Under the pieces are notes generated by a model that was given only the letters and a program-made list of their open reading frames with translations, was not told where the DNA came from and did not search any database. The translations under genes were made by a program, and so were the position numbers. This document shows positions 11,872-21,226 of a stretch of DNA of 45,485 bases, one piece after another. Position 1 is the stretch's first letter; each line of letters opens with the position of its first letter. The stretch is from Deltaproteobacteria bacterium (GTDB taxonomy: Bacteria; Desulfobacterota; Desulfarculia; Desulfarculales; Desulfarculaceae): NCBI GenBank assembly GCA_020444205.1, contig JAHLLJ010000017.1:1-45485 (forward strand). Reading direction: 5' to 3'.

Positions 11872-13215
11872 ATGTTTGACAATCTCAGTGATCGTTTGGC
11901 GCTGACTTTCAAGAAGCTCAAAGGCCATGGCAAGCTCTCGGAGAGCAACATCTCCGAGGCCCTGAGAGAGGTGCGCCTGGCCCTGCTGGAAGCCGACGTC
12001 AACTACAAGGTCGCCAAGCAGTTCATCGCCAAGATCAAGGACCGCGCCGTGGGCCAGGAGGTGATGAAGAGCCTCACCCCGGCCCAGCAGGTCATCAAGA
12101 TCGTGCGCGACGAGCTGTGCGAGCTCATGGGCGGCGAGGCCGAGCCCCTGGACCTGAGCGGCAAGGCGCCCCACCTGTTCATGATGGTGGGCCTGCAGGG
12201 CTCGGGTAAGACCACCACCAGCGGCAAGCTGGCCCTGATGCTCAGAAAGCAGGGCCGCAACCCCTACCTGGTGCCCGCGGACACCCAGCGCCCGGCGGCC
12301 ATTGAGCAGCTCAAGAAGCTGGGGGCCCAGATCCAGGTGCCGGTGTTTGACAGCGACCCGGCTCAGGACCCGGTGGACATATGTGTGCAGTCGCTTTCCG
12401 GCGCCTCCCGGGCTGGTTGCGATGTCATCATCCTGGACACCGCCGGCCGTTTGCACGTGGACACCGAGCTCATGGCCCAGTTGGAGCGCATCCAAAGCCG
12501 CCTGAAGCCTCAAGAGGTGCTCTTGGTGGCCGACGCCATGACCGGCCAGGACGCGGTGACCGTGGCCCAGGCCTTTCACGAGCAATTGGGGCTCACCGGG
12601 GTGGTGCTAACCAAGGTGGAAGGCGACGCCCGGGGCGGAGCGGCCCTTTCCATCCGCGCGGTGAGCCAGGTGCCCATCAAGCTGGTGGGCGTGGGCGAGA
12701 AGCTCGACGCCATCGAGCCCTTCCATCCGGACCGCCTGGCCGGGCGCATTTTGGGCATGGGCGACGTGCTCACCCTGGTGGAAAAGGCGGGCGAGGCCTT
12801 TGAGGCTGAAAAGGCCGAGGCCCTGGCCAAGAAAATGGCCACCGACAGTTTTACCTTGGAGGACTTTAGGGACCAGCTGCAGCAGCTCAAGAACATGGGC
12901 TCGCTGGACGGCCTGCTGTCCATGCTGCCCGGAGCGGGCAAGCTCAAGGGGCTCAAGAATCTGCAGCCCGATGAAAAAGAGCTCAAGCGCACCGAGGCCA
13001 TCATAAATTCCATGACCCCCGGCGAGCGGGGCAACCATCAGATCATCAACGCCTCTCGCCGCAAGCGCATTGCGCGGGGATCGGGAACCTCGGTCTCCGA
13101 GGTGAACCGGCTGCTCAAAAACTTCACCCAGGCCCGCAAGATGATGAAGGGCATGGCTAAGATGGGCGGCGGCAAAAAGAAACAACTGGCCCGCTTGATG
13201 GGGGCCATGCAGTAG
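11872..13215 (+). CDS. ffh: Signal recognition particle protein Ffh (SRP54)
   Basis: 447 residues, normal length. GTPase that with 4.5S RNA binds signal sequences on ribosomes and delivers them to FtsY at the membrane. N domain residues 1-100 (LREVRLALLEADVNY). GTPase domain: G1 GLQGSGKTTTSGKLA from about residue 107, DTPAD-type loop LVPADTQRPAA, DTAGRLHVD and TKVEGDARGGAAL. The C-terminal M domain (about 300-447) is methionine-rich, with GKKKQLARLMGAM at the end. The ribosome site is weak. First gene of the translation operon. Confidence 0.97.
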   Translation: MFDNLSDRLALTFKKLKGHGKLSESNISEALREVRLALLEADVNYKVAKQFIAKIKDRAVGQEVMKSLTPAQQVIKIVRDELCELMGGEAEPLDLSGKAPHLFMMVGLQGSGKTTTSGKLALMLRKQGRNPYLVPADTQRPAAIEQLKKLGAQIQVPVFDSDPAQDPVDICVQSLSGASRAGCDVIILDTAGRLHVDTELMAQLERIQSRLKPQEVLLVADAMTGQDAVTVAQAFHEQLGLTGVVLTKVEGDARGGAALSIRAVSQVPIKLVGVGEKLDAIEPFHPDRLAGRILGMGDVLTLVEKAGEAFEAEKAEALAKKMATDSFTLEDFRDQLQQLKNMGSLDGLLSMLPGAGKLKGLKNLQPDEKELKRTEAIINSMTPGERGNHQIINASRRKRIARGSGTSVSEVNRLLKNFTQARKMMKGMAKMGGGKKKQLARLMGAMQ

Positions 13216-13273
13216 ACAGCGAGACACTCTCGCGTTGATAATAGCCATAGACACATAGGCGGAAAGAACAATC

Positions 13274-13555
13274 ATGGCAGTGAGAATCAGACTGACCCGC
13301 AAGGGCGCCAAGAAAAAACCTTTTTACCGTATCGTGGCCGCCGACTCCGAGGCTCCGCGCGATGGTAAGTTCCTCGAGGTTTTGGGCATCTACGATCCTC
13401 TCCAAGAGCCTGCCCAGATCAAGGTGGACGGTGAGCGCTTGCAGATGTGGTTGGACAGGGGCGCGACCCCTTCGGACACCGTTTTTAACTTGCTCAAGGC
13501 CCAGGGGATGTTCACCCAGGCCAGTGAGGGAGAGGCTGCCGCTGCCCAATCCTAA
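13274..13555 (+). CDS. rpsP: 30S ribosomal protein S16
   Basis: 93 residues. The N-terminus MAVRIRLTRKGAKKKPFYRIV and the FLEVLGIYDPL segment are diagnostic of bS16, an assembly protein of the small subunit. A short Ala-rich acidic tail follows the conserved core. A GGAAAG ribosome site lies nine bases upstream. It sits between ffh and khpA/rimM/trmD/rplS, the standard bacterial order. Confidence 0.97.
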   Translation: MAVRIRLTRKGAKKKPFYRIVAADSEAPRDGKFLEVLGIYDPLQEPAQIKVDGERLQMWLDRGATPSDTVFNLLKAQGMFTQASEGEAAAAQS

Positions 13556-13619
13556 AGTAGGGCCGTGGTCCTGAAGCGGTTGAAGTGATTTTGCTCTCTC
13601 GCGACGGTGGAGGTGCTCA

Positions 13620-13850
13620 ATGAAGGAGCTCATCAGGTATATTGCCCAAGCTTTGGTGGACAACCCGGATCAAGTTTCAGTCAACGAGATCGAGGGTGAA
13701 CAAACTTCGGTAATAGAGCTCAAGGTGGCCAAGGAGGACCTGGGCAAGGTAATCGGCAAACAGGGCCGCACCGCCCGGGCCATGCGCACCATTCTGAGCG
13801 CCGCTTCCACCAAGATTCGCAAGCGTTCGGTGCTGGAAATTATCGAGTAG
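13620..13850 (+). CDS. khpA: KH-domain RNA-binding protein KhpA
   Basis: 76 residues. A single type-II KH domain with the RNA-contact loop [17 protein letters not shown] (a GxxG motif). KhpA binds RNA, usually with the partner KhpB, and has been linked to ribosome and division-related functions in other bacteria. A GGAGGTG ribosome site precedes the ATG. The position between rpsP and rimM is the conserved one for this gene. Confidence 0.95.
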
Positions 13851-13852
13851 CC

Positions 13853-14395
13853 ATGGCCCTTCCCGACCTGGTTCTAATGGGTCGGGCGGCGGGGGCCTTC
13901 GGGGTCAAGGGCGAAGTGAAGCTGACTTCCTTTGCCCAGGACGACAGCATATTCAAGCGGGTTGAACTAATCTACGCCGGGTCCGAGCCCGGCGCGGCCA
14001 AACCGCTGACCATACTTGGGGCGCGCCGCCACAGCGGCCGCCTCTTGTTGCGCCTGAAGGAGATCGCCACCCGCGAGCAGGCCGCCGCCCTGGGCGGAGC
14101 CTGGGTTTATCTCAGGGTGGAGGATCTCGACCCCCTGGGCGAGGACGAGTACTACTGGTTCCAGCTAAAGGGGGCCCAGGTGCTCACCGCCGGAGGGCGT
14201 TTGCTGGGCCGGGTGAAGGCGGTTACCGACGCCGGGGCCCAGGAGCTGTTGGTGGTGAGCGCGCCGCAAAAGCCGGAGCTGTTGGTGCCGGTGGTGGATG
14301 ATATCGTAAAGGAGATAGCCCCGGAGCAGGGCAGGGTGGTGATCGACCCGCCGCCCGGTCTGCTGGAGTGCCAGGGCTGGGAGGAGGAGGAATGA
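13853..14395 (+). CDS. rimM: Ribosome maturation factor RimM
   Basis: 180 residues. N-terminal RimM beta-barrel ([21 protein letters not shown]) and a C-terminal PRC-barrel ([13 protein letters not shown] through [13 protein letters not shown]). RimM helps mature the 30S head by interacting with S19. It starts two bases after khpA and overlaps trmD by four bases (ATGA), so it is tightly coupled in translation. Confidence 0.95.
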
Positions 14396-15123
14396 TCTTC
14401 GACATCCTCACCCTCTTGCCCGAGGTCTGCAAGGCCTATCTCAAGGCCTCGATTTTGGGACGGGCTCAAAAGGCGGGGCACATTCAGGTGCGCCTGACCA
14501 ACATCCGCGACTTCGCCTTTGACCGACACCGCACGGTGGACGATGCTCCTTACGGCGGGGGCAACGGCATGGTCATGAAGGTGGAGCCCTTGGTGGCCGC
14601 CCTGGAGAGCCTGCCGGGCAAGCCCCGGCCGCGCATCGTGCTCATGGCCCCCCAGGGGCGGCCCTTCAGCCAACAGATGGCCGCCGAGCTGGCCGGGCTG
14701 GAGCGCTTGGTGATTATCTGCGGGCGCTATGAGGGCATTGACGAGCGGGTGCGCAAGTTGGCGGTTGACCAGGAGATTTCCCTGGGCGACTTCGTCTTGA
14801 GCGGAGGCGAGCTGCCCGCTTTGGCTGTGGTGGACGCGGTGAGCCGGCTCATCCCCGGGGTGCTGGGCGGTGAGTGCTCGGCCGCGGCCGACAGCTTCAG
14901 CGACGGGATATTGGAGCACCCGCACTACACCAGGCCTCCGGAATTTAGGGGCCTTACGGTGCCCGAGGTGCTCACCAGCGGCAACCACGCGGCCATTGAG
15001 CGCTGGCGGCGCAAAGAGTCGCTTAGACGCACATTGCGCAAACGCCCGGAGCTGCTCAACACCGCTCCCCTGAGTGCCGAGGACCACAAGCTGTTGGCCG
15101 AGATACGCGGCGAAATGGATTAA
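14392..15123 (+). CDS. trmD: tRNA (guanine37-N1)-methyltransferase TrmD
   Basis: 243 residues. Methylates G37 next to the anticodon of several tRNAs with S-adenosylmethionine, preventing +1 frameshifts. SPOUT trefoil-knot motifs: [13 protein letters not shown] and [14 protein letters not shown] form the SAM pocket, and [14 protein letters not shown] is the conserved N-terminal segment. The ATG at 14392 was chosen for its GAGGAGGAGG ribosome site, located inside the rimM end, and because [11 protein letters not shown] is the conserved start. Confidence 0.97.
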
Positions 15124-15222
15124 GCCAAGCCAGGATAGGACTGGCAAAGACAGGAATTTAGGGTAAAATACGCACCCGGCCGGATTCTGCGGCCGGTGAG
15201 GCTTCCCAGGAGGTTTTTACAG

Positions 15223-15570
15223 ATGGATCCCATAGAGCTTATTGCGCGGGAACAGGTCAGGGTAGATATTCCCCAGTTCCGCGCTGGTGATACCGTGAAG
15301 GTGCATGTGCGCATCAAAGAGGGCGAGAAGGAACGTCTCCAGATGTTCGAGGGCGTGGTGCTTCGCCGCCGCGGCCACGGACCCGGAGCCACCTTCACCG
15401 TGCGCAAAATCTCCTACGGCGTGGGCGTGGAGCGCATCTTCCCGCTCAACTCGCCGGTAGTGGACCGGGTGGAAGTGGTCACCCGGGGCAAGGTGCGCCA
15501 AGGGCGCATCTACTACCTGCGCGGCCTCAGGGGCAAAGCCGCCCGCATCAAGGAGGCCTCCCGGAGGTAG
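15223..15570 (+). CDS. rplS: 50S ribosomal protein L19
   Basis: 115 residues. The conserved core [34 protein letters not shown] and [10 protein letters not shown] is bL19, which lies at the subunit interface. The frame is open upstream, but the ATG at 15223 has an excellent AGGAGG ribosome site nine bases before it, and [11 protein letters not shown] is the expected N-terminus. The 99-base gap after trmD is the largest in the 3' half of the operon. Confidence 0.97.
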
Positions 15571-15572
15571 GC

Positions 15573-16211
15573 ATGTCCGCCTCTCCCGCCGGCCCAAGCC
15601 GAGCCCGGGAACGCAGCTTGGCGCGCTCCGGGTACCGTCTAGTGGCTGGGGTGGACGAGGTGGGGCGCGGCCCCTTGGCGGGGCCGGTGGTGGCCGCGGC
15701 GGTTATTCTGCCGCCGCGGTGGAGTGTTCGGGGAGTCAACGACTCCAAGCGCCTGGACCACCAGCGGCGCCGCGCCCTGTCGACGGCCATCAAGCGGGAG
15801 GCCCTGGCCTGGGCGGTGGCCGGAGTCACGCCCCAGGAGATCGACCGCATCAACATCCACCGGGCCAGCCTTTTGGCCATGCGGCGGGCAGTGAACGCCT
15901 TAGCGCCCTCACCGGACTACTTGCTGGTGGATGGGCGCTTTGTTTTGGAGTTGGAGTTGCCCCAGGAGGCTGTGGTGGGCGGCGACGGCTCTTGTACAGC
16001 GGTGGCCGCGGCCTCCATACTGGCTAAAGTGGAGCGCGACGCGCTGATGCGGGCCATGCACTGGATATGGCCGCGGTACAACTTCGCCTCCAACAAGGGC
16101 TACGGCACCGCCGAACACCGTCAAGCCCTGGCTGAATGCGGCCCTTGCCCCCTGCACCGGCGCTCCTACGCGCCGGTGGCTCAGCGCCAACTGGATCTGG
16201 GCTTTGGCTAG
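15573..16211 (+). CDS. rnhB: Ribonuclease HII
   Basis: 212 residues. Removes ribonucleotides embedded in DNA by cutting the RNA strand of RNA/DNA hybrids. Acidic catalytic residues are visible in GVDEVGRGPLAGP (Asp-Glu), LLVDGRFVL (Asp) and ILAKVERDALM (Asp). Starts two bases after rplS, the usual rplS-rnhB-yraN arrangement. Confidence 0.95.
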   Translation: MSASPAGPSRARERSLARSGYRLVAGVDEVGRGPLAGPVVAAAVILPPRWSVRGVNDSKRLDHQRRRALSTAIKREALAWAVAGVTPQEIDRINIHRASLLAMRRAVNALAPSPDYLLVDGRFVLELELPQEAVVGGDGSCTAVAAASILAKVERDALMRAMHWIWPRYNFASNKGYGTAEHRQALAECGPCPLHRRSYAPVAQRQLDLGFG

Positions 16212-16572
16212 GCTGGGCGAGGCCCACGGGCGCGAGGCCGAGGCCCTGGCCAAAGCGCACCTGGAGCGGGGCGGTTACCAGGTGGTGGCCACCCGCAAGC
16301 GCACCTCAGGGGGCGAGTTGGATTTGGTGGCCTGGGACGGACCCACCTTGGTGTTCGTGGAAGTCAAGGCGCGCACCGGCGCGGGCTTCGGGCGGGCCGA
16401 GGAGATGGTGGACCGGCGCAAACGCGAGCGCCTGGGCCAGGCGGCGGCAGCCTATCTGGCCCAAATGGGGCCGCCGTCCCCGCCCTGCCGCTTCGACGTG
16501 GTGGCCGTGGAAATGGGCCCCGGACCGCCCAAGCTGCGGCATTTGACCGACGCCTTTCGGCTGGGGGACTAG
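16204..16572 (+). CDS. YraN / UPF0102 family protein
   Basis: 122 residues. The core GELDLVAWDGPTLVFVEVKAR carries the E-x-D ... E-x-K nuclease-like pattern of the endonuclease-like UPF0102 (YraN) family; the biochemical role in cells is not settled. The TTG at 16204 overlaps the rnhB end by eight bases. The GREAEALAKAHLERGGY segment is the family N-terminus, so the start must lie close to here. Confidence 0.9.
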   Translation: MARLGEAHGREAEALAKAHLERGGYQVVATRKRTSGGELDLVAWDGPTLVFVEVKARTGAGFGRAEEMVDRRKRERLGQAAAAYLAQMGPPSPPCRFDVVAVEMGPGPPKLRHLTDAFRLGD

Positions 16573-16574
16573 AT

Positions 16575-17726
16575 ATGGCCACGCTGTTCGTGGTGGCTAC
16601 GCCCATCGGCAACCTGGAGGATCTGAGCCCCAGGGCGGCCAGGGTGCTGACCCAGTCGCCGGTGGTGGCCGCGGAAAGCGTGGGAAGGGCCAAGAAGCTT
16701 TTGGCTCATCTGGGCCTTAGCGGCAAGTGGCTCATCTCCTGTAGGGAGGCCAACCGCCGCCAGGCCGCGGCCAAGGTCCTTCAGGCCCTGGGCGAGGGCA
16801 AGGACGTGGCCCTGATCTCCGACGCCGGCACCCCGGGGCTCAGCGATCCCGGCCAGGCGGTGGTGGAAGAGGTGGGCAAGCTTGGGCACCGCATCAGCCC
16901 GGTGGCCGGGCCCAGCGCCCTGGCCGCAGCCCTGTCCGTGGCCGGCATAAAGCAAGCGCCCTTTGTGTTTCTGGGCTTTTTGCCGGCCAAGAGCGGGGCG
17001 CGCAAGCGGCTGCTGGAGCAGGCAGGGGCCAGCGGCTGGAGCTTGGTGGCCTATGAGGCCCCCCACCGGCTGGCCGAGGCGGCCAAGGATTTGGGCCAGG
17101 TTTTGGGCGAGCGGCAAGTGGTGGTTTGCCGGGAGCTGACCAAGCTGCACGAAGAGATTTTGCGCACCACCTGCGCCGAGCTGGCCGATCACCTGGAGCC
17201 GGAAAAGCTCCGGGGCGAGATAACCCTGGTGATCGGGCCGGGGAAGGCCCAAGAGGCCGACCCGGAACAAGTGCGGAGCCTGGTGGAACAAGGTCTGGCC
17301 GCAGGGGAGCTGAAACCCAGCGCCCTGGCCAAACAAGTAGCCGGGGCCACGGGGTTGGGCCGCGAAGAGGTTTATCAGATCATTCTGGCCATTCGGGACG
17401 AGGCGGAGCAGGACGAGGACGAGGCAGTGATCCACGAAGAGATCAGCGAGGAAGAATCTCAGGAACGTCGGCTCCTGGTGGCCAACAGCCTGGGCCTGCA
17501 TGCCAGGGCGGCGGCCAAGATCACCGAGGCGGTGAGCAACTTCGACTGCTCGGTGACCTTGCACAAGGGCAAGGAGGAGGCCGACGCTTCCAGCGTACTT
17601 TCCATCTTGGGTCTGGACGCGCCCAAGGGCAGCCAGGTGGTGGCCCGGGCCCAGGGGCCCCAGGCCTTGGAAGCCCTTAACGCCTTGGATAAGCTTTTCG
17701 CCGGATTGTTTGGAGAGGGCCGTTGA
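16575..17726 (+). CDS. rsmI: 16S rRNA 2'-O-methyltransferase RsmI fused to HPr
   Basis: 383 residues in one unbroken frame. Residues 1-274 form a complete Rsm[14 protein letters not shown] at the start, [13 protein letters not shown] and [16 protein letters not shown] of the tetrapyrrole-methylase fold, EAPHRL, and the small helical C-terminal domain. RsmI methylates the ribose of C1402 in 16S rRNA. A very acidic linker (about 275-297) leads into a full HPr domain (298-383): phospho-acceptor His309 in [11 protein letters not shown] and a Ser340 in DASSVLSIL at the HPrK-site position. The usual Pro after HAR is Ala. An in-frame GTG at 17427 (residue 285) could start a free 99-residue HPr. The stop overlaps the ptsI start. 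It could be a true fusion, a fusion plus an internal start, or, less likely, the result of a sequence error removing a stop. Confidence 0.92.
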
Positions 17727-19507
17727 GCTCCAGCGCCGAAAAAATAATGCGCGGGGTGGGCGCCAGCCCGGGTATCGCCATTGGGCGGGCCCTGGTGGTC
17801 AGCCGCAGTCCGGTGCAGGTTCCCTACCGCCCCCTGGCCGAGGACCAGGTGGACAGGGAGGTGGAGCGCTTCGGCCGGGCGGTGAACGCCGCTCGAGAAG
17901 AGCTCAACGCGGCCAAGGCGGAGCTGGGCCCGGATCTGGCCGACTACGCCTATATCATCGAGGCCCACCTGAGCATTCTGGGCGACAAGATGATCTCCCA
18001 GCGCTCGGAAGAGCTGATCCGCGCCCAGCAAATCAACGCCGAGTGGGCCCTGGGCCTGGCCGAGGCCGAGGCCAAAAGCATCTTTGAAAAGGTCAAGGAC
18101 GACTACATCCGCTCCCGGGCCTCGGACGTGGAGTACGTGGCCGGGCAGGTGCTCAGGCATCTTTCGGGCAACAATGGCATCGAGCTTTCCAACATCCGCG
18201 AGAAGGTGGTGGTGGTGGCCCACGACCTGAGCCCGGCCGAGACCACCCAGATGGACCTGGGCTGGATCATGGGCTTTGTCACCGACATGGGCGGCCCCAC
18301 CAGCCACACGGCCATCATGGCCCAGGCCAAGGCCATCCCCGCGGTGGTGGGCCTGGAGCGGGTGAGCGCCGAGGTGGCCAGCGGCGACTTCATCATCGTC
18401 GACGGCTCCAATGGCACCATAATCGTGCACCCCGACGAGGAGACCCTGCACGATTACCGGGACAAGCAGGAAGCCTACGAGATCTACGCCCAGGAGATTT
18501 TGGCCCAGGCCCATCTTCCCGCGGCCACGGTGGACGGCCGCCGCCTGGAGGTGGGGGCCAACATCGAGCTGGCCGAGGAAGTGGGCACCGCGCTCAACTA
18601 CGGGGCCGAGGCGGTGGGCCTGTTCCGCACCGAGTTCTTATACGTGAGCCAAAAAACCCTGCCCACCGAAGAGGAGCTGTTCGCCAACTTCGCCGCCGTG
18701 GCTCAGCGCCTGGACGGGCGTCCGGTGAACATCCGCACCCTGGACATCGGCGGTGACAAGTTCGCCAGTTCCTTGGAGTTGGCCCCGGAGATCAACCCGG
18801 CCCTGGGGCTTCGGGCCATCCGCTACTGCCTCAAGGAGCAGGGTCTGTTCCGCACCCAGCTTCGAGCCATCCTCAGGGCCTCGGCCCTGGGCCAGGTGCG
18901 GGTGATGTTCCCGCTCATCTCCGGAGTGAGCGAGCTGCTGCAGGCCCGCGAAATCCTGGAGGAGGTCAAGCAAGAGCTCAGCGCCGAGGGACAGGAGTTT
19001 GACCCTGGCCTCAAGGTGGGCATTATGATCGAGGTGCCTTCGGCCGTGGCCATTGCCGACCTATTGGCCCAGCATGCGGACTTTTTCTCCATCGGCACCA
19101 ACGATCTGATTCAGTACTCCTTGGCTATCGACCGGGTCAACGAGTTCGTGGCCCATTTGTACCAACCCATGCACCCGGCGGTGCTTAGGATGGTGCACCA
19201 GGTGGTTGCCGCCGGGCACGGCGCGGGCATCCCCGTGGGCATGTGCGGCGAGATGGCCGGCGACGCCCGGGCGGTGCCCCTGCTCTTGGGCCTGGGCCTG
19301 GACTCGCTGTCCATGAACCCCTTGGGTATTCCCAGGGTCAAGCAGGTGTTGCGCCTGGCCTCGGCCGGGGAGTGGGGCGGCTTGGCCGAGCAGGCCTTGG
19401 GCTATGCCACCGCCGCTGAAGTGGGGCGTTTCATGGATCAAGAGTTGGAAGATCATTTCTCCCAGGTGCTGCCGCCGCGCGGGCCTGTCCCGGCCGAGTT
19501 GGCCTAG
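17723..19507 (+). CDS. ptsI: PTS Enzyme I (phosphoenolpyruvate-protein phosphotransferase)
   Basis: 594 residues. Takes phosphate from phosphoenolpyruvate and passes it to HPr. Active His195 lies in [13 protein letters not shown]. The PEP-binding barrel has [29 protein letters not shown] and GMCGEMAGD. The TTG start overlaps the rsmI-HPr stop in TTGA, which couples production of the two partners. A short extra tail ([11 protein letters not shown]) follows the family core. No EII permease is in the window, so the system may be regulatory rather than for sugar uptake; that is inference. Confidence 0.96.
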
Positions 19508-19511
19508 ATCC

Positions 19512-19967
19512 ATGGAAGGCGGCAACATCAAAATAGTGGCCCGCAACAAAAAGGCCCGTTTTGACTACGAGTTGGGTGACCGCTTTGAGGCGGGCCTGGT
19601 GCTCACCGGCACGGAGGTCAAATCCCTGCGCATGGGCAAGGCCAGCTTGAGCGAGGCCTACGCCAAGGTCACGGGTGGGGAGGCCTGGCTGGTGGGTTGC
19701 CAGATACAGCCCTATCCCTTTGCCTATTACGACAACCATGAGCCCACCCGTCAGCGCAAGCTGCTGTTGCATAAGCGCGAGCTCAAGCGCCTGGGCGTCA
19801 AGCTGGCCGAGCAGGGCTATAGCCTTATCCCCACCGCCCTGTACTTTAAGCGGGGCAAGGCCAAGGTGGAACTGGCCTTGGCCAGGGGTAAGAAAAAGCA
19901 CGACAAACGAGCTACCATTAAAAAACGTGAACAAGAGAGGGAGATGGCCCGCGCTCTTAAGCACTAA
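19512..19967 (+). CDS. smpB: SsrA-binding protein SmpB
   Basis: 151 residues. Binds tmRNA and brings it to stalled ribosomes for trans-translation. Core motifs KKARFDYELGDRFEAGLVLTG-type start, GTEVKSLRMGKASLSEAY, RKLLLHKRELKRL and the basic helical tail GKKKHDKRATIKKREQ. The frame is open upstream to 19404, but the ATG at 19512, four bases after the ptsI stop, gives the expected length. No tmRNA gene is visible in the 212 bases downstream. Confidence 0.95.
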   Translation: MEGGNIKIVARNKKARFDYELGDRFEAGLVLTGTEVKSLRMGKASLSEAYAKVTGGEAWLVGCQIQPYPFAYYDNHEPTRQRKLLLHKRELKRLGVKLAEQGYSLIPTALYFKRGKAKVELALARGKKKHDKRATIKKREQEREMARALKH

Positions 19968-20048
19968 ATCCTGCCTTTTTCCTGCCGCACGATTAATTAG
20001 TATTAGTAAGTAAATACGTACCGTTACAGGTAAAACCCTTTATTGGAG

Positions 20049-20064
20049 ATGTTAATGGTAACAT
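20049..20064. promoter_or_regulatory. Dyad upstream of the mnmA promoter, possible operator
   Basis: ATGTTA, four bases (ATGG), then TAACAT: perfect six-base arms. It lies 28 bases before the -35 box of the sulfur operon in an AT-rich, gene-free region. A second, shorter dyad TACC-N6-GGTA is at 20019-20032. An Rrf2 regulator encoded in the same operon makes autoregulation plausible, but the dyad has not been matched to a known Rrf2 site. Confidence 0.35.
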
Positions 20065-20091
20065 TTCATAGGTTTTATCAAGGAATTAACA

Positions 20092-20120
20092 TTGACAGGT
20101 CTATCCCCCACGGATATATT
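20092..20120 (+). promoter_or_regulatory. Near-consensus promoter of the mnmA-rrf2-DUF39 operon
   Basis: A perfect TTGACA (20092-20097), 17-base spacer, and TATATT (20115-20120, one mismatch). The predicted start near 20127 gives a leader of about 53 bases before mnmA. The region 19968-20179 is conspicuously AT-rich against its neighbours. Confidence 0.82.
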
Positions 20121-20179
20121 CTTAATCCTCCCTAAAGACCATGCGCTGCATATGAATTGTTCAACAGGGGGAAGGATAA

Positions 20180-21226
20180 TTGGCGAAGCTAGCAGTGGCC
20201 ATGAGCGGGGGCGTGGACTCCTCATTGGCCGCGCTTGTTTTAAAGCAGGAGGGTCACCAGGTAGTGGGGCTCAGCCTGCGCCTGGGCGCGGGGCCTGATG
20301 GGGCCTGGAGCGCCGGGGCCGCGGCGGCGGCCCAATTGGGCCTGGAACATCAGATAGTTGAGGCAGGCGGGCCCTTTGAACAAAGAGTTTTAGGGCCGGT
20401 GGCTCAAGCATACGCGGGGGGATTTACGCCAAATCCCTGCGCCATGTGTAACGCCCGGGTAAAGCTGCCCCTGCTTTGGGAAGCGGCTCGGGGCATGGGT
20501 TGCGAGGCCCTGGCCACCGGACACTACGCCCGCCTGGTGCAAAATGCCCACGGCTGGCAACTGGCCGAGGCCGAGGACCGGAGCAAAAGCCAGGCTTACT
20601 TCCTGGCCCGCGTGGAGCCCGCTCTGCTGCCCCGGCTGAGGTTCCCCTTGGGGGAGATGGAAAAAGGCCAGGTGCGCCGCCTGGCGGCCCAGGAGGGCCT
20701 GGTGGCGGCTCATAGGCCCGAGAGCCAGGATTGCTGCTTTTTGCCTCCCGGCGGCTGGGACGAGTTCATGAAGCAACGGGAGGCTGTTAGGCCCGGGGTT
20801 TTGGAAGACGCCCAGGGGAATCAACTGGGGCGTCACCAGGGGCTGCACCGCTTTACCGTGGGGCAGCGCCGCGGGCTGGGACTGGCCATGGGCCAACCGG
20901 TCTATGTGACCAGCCTGGACGGTGGACGGGCCGCGGTAAGGGTGGGGCCCAAGCCGGAACTGGCCACCTCGGGCCTGGAGGCCAAACAACCCCTCTGGTA
21001 CCTGCCTCCTCAGGGCGATGAAGAGTTTTTGGTGCGTTTTCGTTATTCCCACCCAGGCGTAAAATGTCGGGTGGAGCCAAAGGGTCAAGGCTTGCGGGCG
21101 CTGTTCGCCCAAGAGCAGGGGGCGGTGGCCCCGGGCCAGTTGGCGGTGTTTTACCGGGACCGCCGCATAGCGGGCTCGGCTTGGATTGACAAGGCAATAC
21201 AACCACTAAGGATAGGGACATCATGA
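20180..21226 (+). CDS. mnmA: tRNA-specific 2-thiouridylase MnmA
   Basis: 348 residues. Thiolates the wobble uridine (U34) of Lys/Glu/Gln tRNAs using ATP and a sulfur relay. PP-loop AMSGGVDSSLAAL at the N-terminus. Catalytic cysteines are visible in FTPNPCAMCN and SQDCCFLP. Central ATGHYARL, DRSKSQAYFLARV and TVGQRRGLGLAMG motifs are present. It starts with TTG behind a GGGGGAAGGA ribosome site, and its end overlaps the Rrf2 gene by four bases (ATGA). First gene of an operon whose other members also concern sulfur or Fe-S chemistry. Confidence 0.95.
   Translation: MAKLAVAMSGGVDSSLAALVLKQEGHQVVGLSLRLGAGPDGAWSAGAAAAAQLGLEHQIVEAGGPFEQRVLGPVAQAYAGGFTPNPCAMCNARVKLPLLWEAARGMGCEALATGHYARLVQNAHGWQLAEAEDRSKSQAYFLARVEPALLPRLRFPLGEMEKGQVRRLAAQEGLVAAHRPESQDCCFLPPGGWDEFMKQREAVRPGVLEDAQGNQLGRHQGLHRFTVGQRRGLGLAMGQPVYVTSLDGGRAAVRVGPKPELATSGLEAKQPLWYLPPQGDEEFLVRFRYSHPGVKCRVEPKGQGLRALFAQEQGAVAPGQLAVFYRDRRIAGSAWIDKAIQPLRIGTS

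Follow-up and report, generated by a model that had tools for sequence, protein, structure and literature searches.

An in-frame fusion of the rRNA methyltransferase RsmI with the phosphocarrier HPr, conserved in Desulfarculaceae and found in a second family of the phylum

Features of the rsmI-HPr locus

The rsmI-HPr gene consists of one unbroken open reading frame (ORF) on the + strand of the window, the whole stretch of 45,485 bp of DNA that was analysed. It runs from an ATG at 16575 to a TGA ending at 17726 and encodes 383 amino acids. The features of the locus are as follows.

15196-16572, + strand: rplS, rnhB and yraN, upstream operon genes (Pfam)
16575-17726, + strand: rsmI-HPr fusion gene, 383 aa, a single open frame; orthologous fusion in 13 complete Desulfarculaceae loci, its own included
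16575-17387, + strand: RsmI domain, residues 1-271, C-terminal helical part included; TIGR00096 above cut-off, AdoMet-site residues invariant in 23/23 fusions
17388-17462, + strand: acidic linker, residues 272-296; variable in sequence and length, residues 279-293 with pLDDT <50
17427-17429, + strand: GTG, in frame at residue 285, candidate internal start for a free HPr of 99 aa
17463-17726, + strand: HPr domain (residues 297-383) and stop; PF00381 and TIGR01003 above cut-off
17499-17501, + strand: His309 (CAT), phosphorylation site, equivalent of His15; invariant in 23/23 fusions
17592-17594, + strand: Ser340 (AGC), equivalent of Ser46; invariant in 23/23 fusions
17723-19507, + strand: ptsI, Enzyme I, with a TTG start that overlaps the fusion stop (TTGA); PF05524, PF00391, PF02896 and TIGR01417
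19404-19967, + strand: smpB, downstream of ptsI; PF01668, coordinates of the ORF as listed, domain from residue 45

The gene order is ffh, rpsP, khpA, rimM, trmD, rplS, rnhB, yraN, rsmI-HPr, ptsI and smpB. HPr and Enzyme I thus lie within a cluster of ribosome and translation genes that extends from ffh to smpB and mnmA (window 11872-21226). A scan of the + strand sequence identified neither a promoter-like site between 15170 and 18998 nor a terminator-like site in 15000-20200.

The RsmI part of the protein matches the TIGR00096 equivalog (residues 4-271; 209.6 bits, cut-off 167.9) and PF00590 at residues 3-204. The HPr part matches PF00381 at residues 297-376 (78 bits, cut-off 23) and TIGR01003 (73.5 bits, cut-off 47.9). 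The original prediction had described a complete methyltransferase running through an acidic linker into a full HPr, and these matches agree with the domain boundaries that it gave. TP_methylase and PTS-HPr are the only Pfam domains found in the 383-aa protein, with no further PTS domain joined to HPr. Six residues of the RsmI part, T86, D91, A115, F135, E161 and R165, are invariant in all 23 aligned fusions. By an alignment with an inferred numbering offset, they would correspond to T95, D100, A124, F144, E170 and R174 of E. coli RsmI; the first five of these, plus R174, are given as its AdoMet-site residues in the accessible part of PMC5053481. In this comparison the position of E. coli I98 varies among L, V and I in the fusions and that of Y169 is Y or F, while I21, L198 and M228 lie outside it. 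The HPr motifs that had been claimed, His309 and Ser340, are borne out by the same 23 fusions.

The AAEDT motif of a solved RsmI chain reads AAESV or AAESL in the 13 Desulfarculaceae fusions and in the separate genes L033, L114 and L115. In the fusions of a second family, f54, this position reads AAEN, AAEK or AAES.

Direct coupling to ptsI had also been predicted, and it holds: the TTG at 17723 lies inside the TGA stop of the fusion, and the Enzyme I domains are confirmed in the frame that follows, which is a complete gene. We take this TTG as the ptsI start because GGAGAGGG lies just upstream of it and because the relative L009 has ATGA at the equivalent place. The ptsI start and the fusion stop overlap in 13/13 junctions compared.

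Conservation of the fusion

It had been proposed that the same fusion be sought in related genomes. A sample made up of the window's own genome plus 60 relatives shows the uninterrupted fused frame in 8/8 genomes of the window's genus, in the single genome of genus g3 (1/1) and in 4/6 genomes of genus g7. The gene is cut by a contig end in a fifth g7 locus, where the junction itself is open, and the sixth g7 genome (71% complete) has no match to the fusion protein. In total, the Desulfarculaceae have 13 complete fused loci, including those of the single-contig genomes G006 and G009.

The window's genome is a draft of 342 contigs that is 82% complete, and a sequencing or assembly artefact could in principle produce a fused frame. 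However, the 13 complete loci come from different species and have diverged linkers, yet all of them are in frame. Because the fusion is carried by so many complete loci of the family, two of them on single-contig genomes, it is not an assembly error; we reject that reading, to which we give practically no credence. The original claim of one unbroken RsmI-HPr frame stands, and rsmI-HPr is confirmed as a genuine, inherited and conserved fusion.

In five Desulfarculaceae genomes of four other genera, rsmI and ptsH are adjacent yet separate and out of frame (0/5 in frame). Adjacency without fusion is common among the relatives; an exception is G041, which has both genes on one contig but at a distance of about 1 Mb. 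G020, an order-level relative (99% complete, 7% contamination), has EIIA-Man and no match to either HPr or RsmI-HPr.

Origins of the fusion

Among the matches listed for a phylum sample of 395 genomes, both domains lie in one stop-free frame only in the Desulfarculaceae and in G322 and G412, two fused genomes of another family of the same phylum, f54. A survey of 46 f54 genomes, 42 of them with a match, identified the fusion in 13/46. Ten of these fusions are complete; those of G452, G464 and G458 are cut by contig ends, with the junction open. Seven further f54 genomes have rsmI and ptsH in a shared frame, separated by no more than one or two stops, and strain NaphS2 belongs to this in-frame-with-stop group, at zero tree distance to G469. 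In the f54 loci L153, L155, L156 and L159, rsmI and ptsH share the same frame, and one stop plus an ACA codon, or two stops, precede the ATG. Judged by this arrangement of frames, the four loci are a ready precursor of the fusion.

The number of origins was addressed with a tree of 51 rows. L171 and L173, in which no HPr was found in the locus, were left out, as were the cut loci L160, L026 and L174-L176 and other loci gathered. Three row pairs at zero distance (L172/L039, L159/L035 and L157/L034) probably represent genomes that entered the tree twice, from two collections. A single clade for all 23 complete fusions was rejected (AU p 1e-37), which gives the fusion at least two origins. For the 13 Desulfarculaceae fusions, a single origin was not rejected (AU p 0.24). 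A single clade of the f54 fusions gave an AU p of 0.006, for a group named post hoc after the tree had been seen; with the f54 group named in this way, three or more origins overall are likely.

For a scan beyond the phylum, the best 80 of 581 relatives were kept and 13 loci were read through, of which two are fused, both in genomes already in the sample, and 11 are separate. The other 67 of the best 80 were judged by the extent of the match, which ends at or before residue 285 except in L065, where it reaches residue 310. The repeated fusion of the same pair may also reflect selection for tethering itself.

Linker, predicted structure and selection

The linker is variable in both sequence and length among the fusions. 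AlphaFold2 on the 23 fusions, with the model used for fold order and linker disorder only, gave a mean pLDDT of 76, values <50 for linker residues 279-293 and a pTM of 0.41. The predicted order of the HPr part is beta-alpha-beta-beta-alpha-beta-alpha. Values of dN/dS are 0.12-0.36 for RsmI and 0.05-0.44 for HPr (11 pairs each; <0.45 in both domains in 11/11), and 0.32-0.54 for the linker in the 9/11 pairs for which it was computable. Both domains are under purifying selection, the linker less so. These results agree with two functional domains joined by a loose tether, with no sign of a fixed interface.

The phosphotransferase system of the fusion carriers

A single HPr was identified in 12/12 Desulfarculaceae genomes searched and in 7/8 further genomes of the family; the remaining one, G018 (71% complete), has none. 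In f54, 11 fused genomes were searched for HPr, with G464 and G458 outside the search. Nine have one HPr, G322 has a second, partial match (27.5 bits, above cut-off), and G452, in which the domain is cut by a contig end, has no match. EIIA-Man is present in 11/12 family genomes, G011 being the exception. The window's genome has an rpoN-hpf-ptsN-rapZ-EIIA-Man cluster in which all five proteins are matched by Pfam. For the corresponding cluster of G009, Pfam supports ptsN (EIIA-Ntr), rapZ and EIIA-Man, and inspection of the sequence identified rpoN and hpf. No PTS permease EIIC was found with PF03609 and PF02378 in any of the 12 family genomes, which are mostly drafts. Since the fused HPr is the only one found, the search for EIIC gave no match and both EIIA-Ntr and EIIA-Man occur, the PTS of the fusion carriers looks like a regulatory, permease-less chain from EI through HPr to the EIIA proteins. 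Many of the genomes are incomplete (82% for the window's), and the terms "only HPr" and "no permease" therefore refer to what the assemblies contain.

The original prediction had named Ser340 as the HPr kinase site. The serine itself is invariant, but its reading as an HprK target is weakened: no HprK scored above cut-off with PF07475 (20 genomes) or TIGR00679 (20 and 19 genomes), although the B. subtilis control was likewise without a match. In the clusters of the window's genome and G009, the two that were read, the interval from ptsN to rapZ contains no hprK. A weak HprK match in the window's genome (L142:607-1680; contig C95 of G000) is an HprK-related kinase B (TIGR04355, 456.6 bits). As no canonical HprK was found, with a control that also failed to match in B. 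subtilis, the conserved Ser340 is left without a known partner.

The original prediction had suggested that the fusion would tie the PEP level to ribosome modification. In such a signalling role, the phosphorylation state of HPr, and hence PEP supply, would alter the activity of RsmI or its binding to the 30S subunit. Tethering would then have been selected repeatedly because HPr phosphorylation controls 2'-O-methylation of C1402, or because it brings HPr and its EIIA partners to the 30S subunit, and the ribosomal P site would respond to PEP supply. If the domains do talk to each other, energy state would be linked to decoding. The repeated origin of the fusion, its presence throughout the sampled genomes of the window's genus, the position of HPr and EI inside a translation gene cluster and the apparent lack of a permease are all in line with such a role. 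However, many relatives have the two genes adjacent without fusion, the linker is unconserved and disordered, and the overall packing of the model is not confident (pTM as given above). Operon adjacency explains the fusion, so that a functional link is not needed, and we regard both the signalling role and selection for it as improbable.

A candidate internal start for free HPr

The original prediction had also suggested that HPr might simply be delivered from an internal GTG start at 17427. An in-frame ATG or GTG is found 19-24 codons before the GLHAR of HPr in 13/13 complete Desulfarculaceae fusions; of the five separate relatives, four show a potential start at a distance of 16-21 codons from it and the fifth at 11. 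Such a shared 6-codon start window arises in only a fraction of 0.0026 of codon shuffles (8 representative linkers). The mRNA at the candidate start has less structure than 81-99% of the windows along the ORF in 13/13 fusions, for which the make-up of the linker may be part of the explanation; around GTG 17427 in the window's gene the figure is 97%. The GC3 of the linker is below that of both domains in 12/13. These observations favour a dual-coding arrangement, in which translation from GTG 17427 would give the working phosphocarrier, a free HPr of about 99 residues, and the RsmI-attached form would be a tolerated by-product.

A stricter test is the shuffling of synonymous codons, with p-values that treat related sequences as independent. 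The two tests of this kind on the window's genome are not significant (p 0.48 and 0.68). Eight representatives combined gave p 0.0006 for structure and 0.008 for SD, with related sequences treated as independent, and this signal comes mainly from g7 and, for structure, from G009 (p 0.025). Under the same treatment of related sequences, the three representatives of g7 combined gave p 0.0002 for SD and 0.0001 for structure. The g7 loci have an AGG exactly 4 codons before the GTG in 4/4 complete loci and the partial fifth, and in two of the complete loci it is the only AGG of the ORF. Even within g7, however, the structure test was negative for one representative (p 0.62) and the SD test gave only p 0.08 for one, while the window's genus combined gave p 0.62 for SD and 0.65 for structure. 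The codon evidence for a ribosome-binding site is thus strong in g7 and absent in the window's genus.

Further points against dual coding come from the SD values themselves. The candidate start of G009 has no SD (0.2 kcal/mol), each ORF has 26-40 in-frame start codons, among which the candidate ranks 6th-24th by SD, and in L009 another GTG of the linker ranks first. Because purine-rich linkers yield comparable values, we rejected SD strength by itself as a proof that translation starts internally.

In f54, a common start of the separate HPr genes is ATG GAA, located 13 codons ahead of GLHAR. Among the f54 fusions, this ancestral place holds an ATG in G458 and a GTG in G322 and G412, that of G322 preceded by AGGAGG; the starts retained in G322 and G458 would favour dual coding. 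However, neither codon is present there in 10/13. Four f54 genomes of genus g271 have a TTG with a good SD two codons past the ancestral place, and in G456 a TTG with an SD of -7.8 lies 16 codons ahead of GLHAR. In the f54 fusions of G441 and G449 there is no ATG, GTG or TTG 3-30 codons before the HPr site, and each genome has one HPr. Tethered HPr therefore seems to be enough in these lineages, unless their assemblies (89 and 92% complete) lack another. Other lineages probably also make free HPr. On balance, we consider it possible but doubtful that free HPr is the working form and the fused chain a by-product. As for the internal GTG itself, the claim is upheld in part: a start is kept at nearly the same place in all 13 complete Desulfarculaceae fusions, but the synonymous-codon signal of a ribosome-binding site is confined mainly to g7.

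A probable tethered bifunctional protein

We favour as probable a recurrent fusion of operon neighbours that supplies a tethered HPr and, in some lineages, probably free HPr too. The adjacent genes rsmI and ptsH would have fused through loss of the rsmI stop codon, with translation reading in via the former ptsH leader; in the Desulfarculaceae a frame shift would have accompanied the loss of the stop. The product would be a bifunctional tethered protein. Its N-terminal domain is predicted to carry out 2'-O-methylation of C1402 in 16S rRNA, and its C-terminal HPr is predicted to take up phosphate on His309 from the Enzyme I encoded directly downstream. The phosphate would then be passed to EIIA-Ntr and EIIA-Man of the permease-less regulatory PTS. 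A flexible linker would let HPr reach these partners, so that no exchange of signals between the two halves is required. The old HPr start, which appears to be kept inside the gene most clearly in g7 and possibly in the window's genome, would add free HPr. RsmI is expected to be scarce and HPr is usually abundant. A 1:1 fusion may therefore leave the cell short of HPr if no free HPr is produced alongside it.

The fusion is of interest as a natural test of whether HPr can work while tethered 1:1 to a housekeeping enzyme. The graded cases run from separate genes, through genes in frame with one stop between them, to fusions that retain the old start and fusions that have lost it, and they show operon neighbours becoming one protein.

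Comparison with known systems

In the open-licence literature, searched for both names together and around the subject, no described RsmI-HPr protein turned up, in agreement with the original prediction; in the part of PMC3814617 that was accessible, such a fusion is not the subject. The fusion resembles RsmI proteins of known structure (chains 5hw4 and 9pzg) over the whole domain, in the AdoMet-site residues and in a gene position adjoining yraN. It differs from them in having a C-terminal HPr and in reading AAESV where the solved chain has AAEDT. With the HPr and NPr phosphocarriers it shares the His site, the Ser46 position, the predicted fold order and a gene directly before ptsI, and the best solved-structure match to its HPr part is an NPr (5t17). 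Unlike these free small proteins, however, its HPr is tethered to RsmI.

The PTS of the fusion carriers is similar to that of the EI-R group, a PTS chain without transporters described in the available portion of PMC2405797: it has EI, HPr, EIIA-Ntr and EIIA-Man, two EIIA genes lie near rpoN, and no EIIC was found. It differs in that HPr is supplied as an RsmI fusion and in that no canonical HprK was found, the B. subtilis control being likewise without a match. Multiphosphoryl transfer proteins such as FPr and FruB are comparable in that HPr is one domain within a longer chain, so that an HPr of this kind is already known. According to the accessible text of PMC2405797, its partners there are other PTS domains, usually IIA, whereas in the fusion the partner is an rRNA methyltransferase, a combination found in no paper of the open-licence literature searched. 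What sets the fusion apart is that the only HPr found hangs on an rRNA methyltransferase, and that the same pair has been fused in at least two families.
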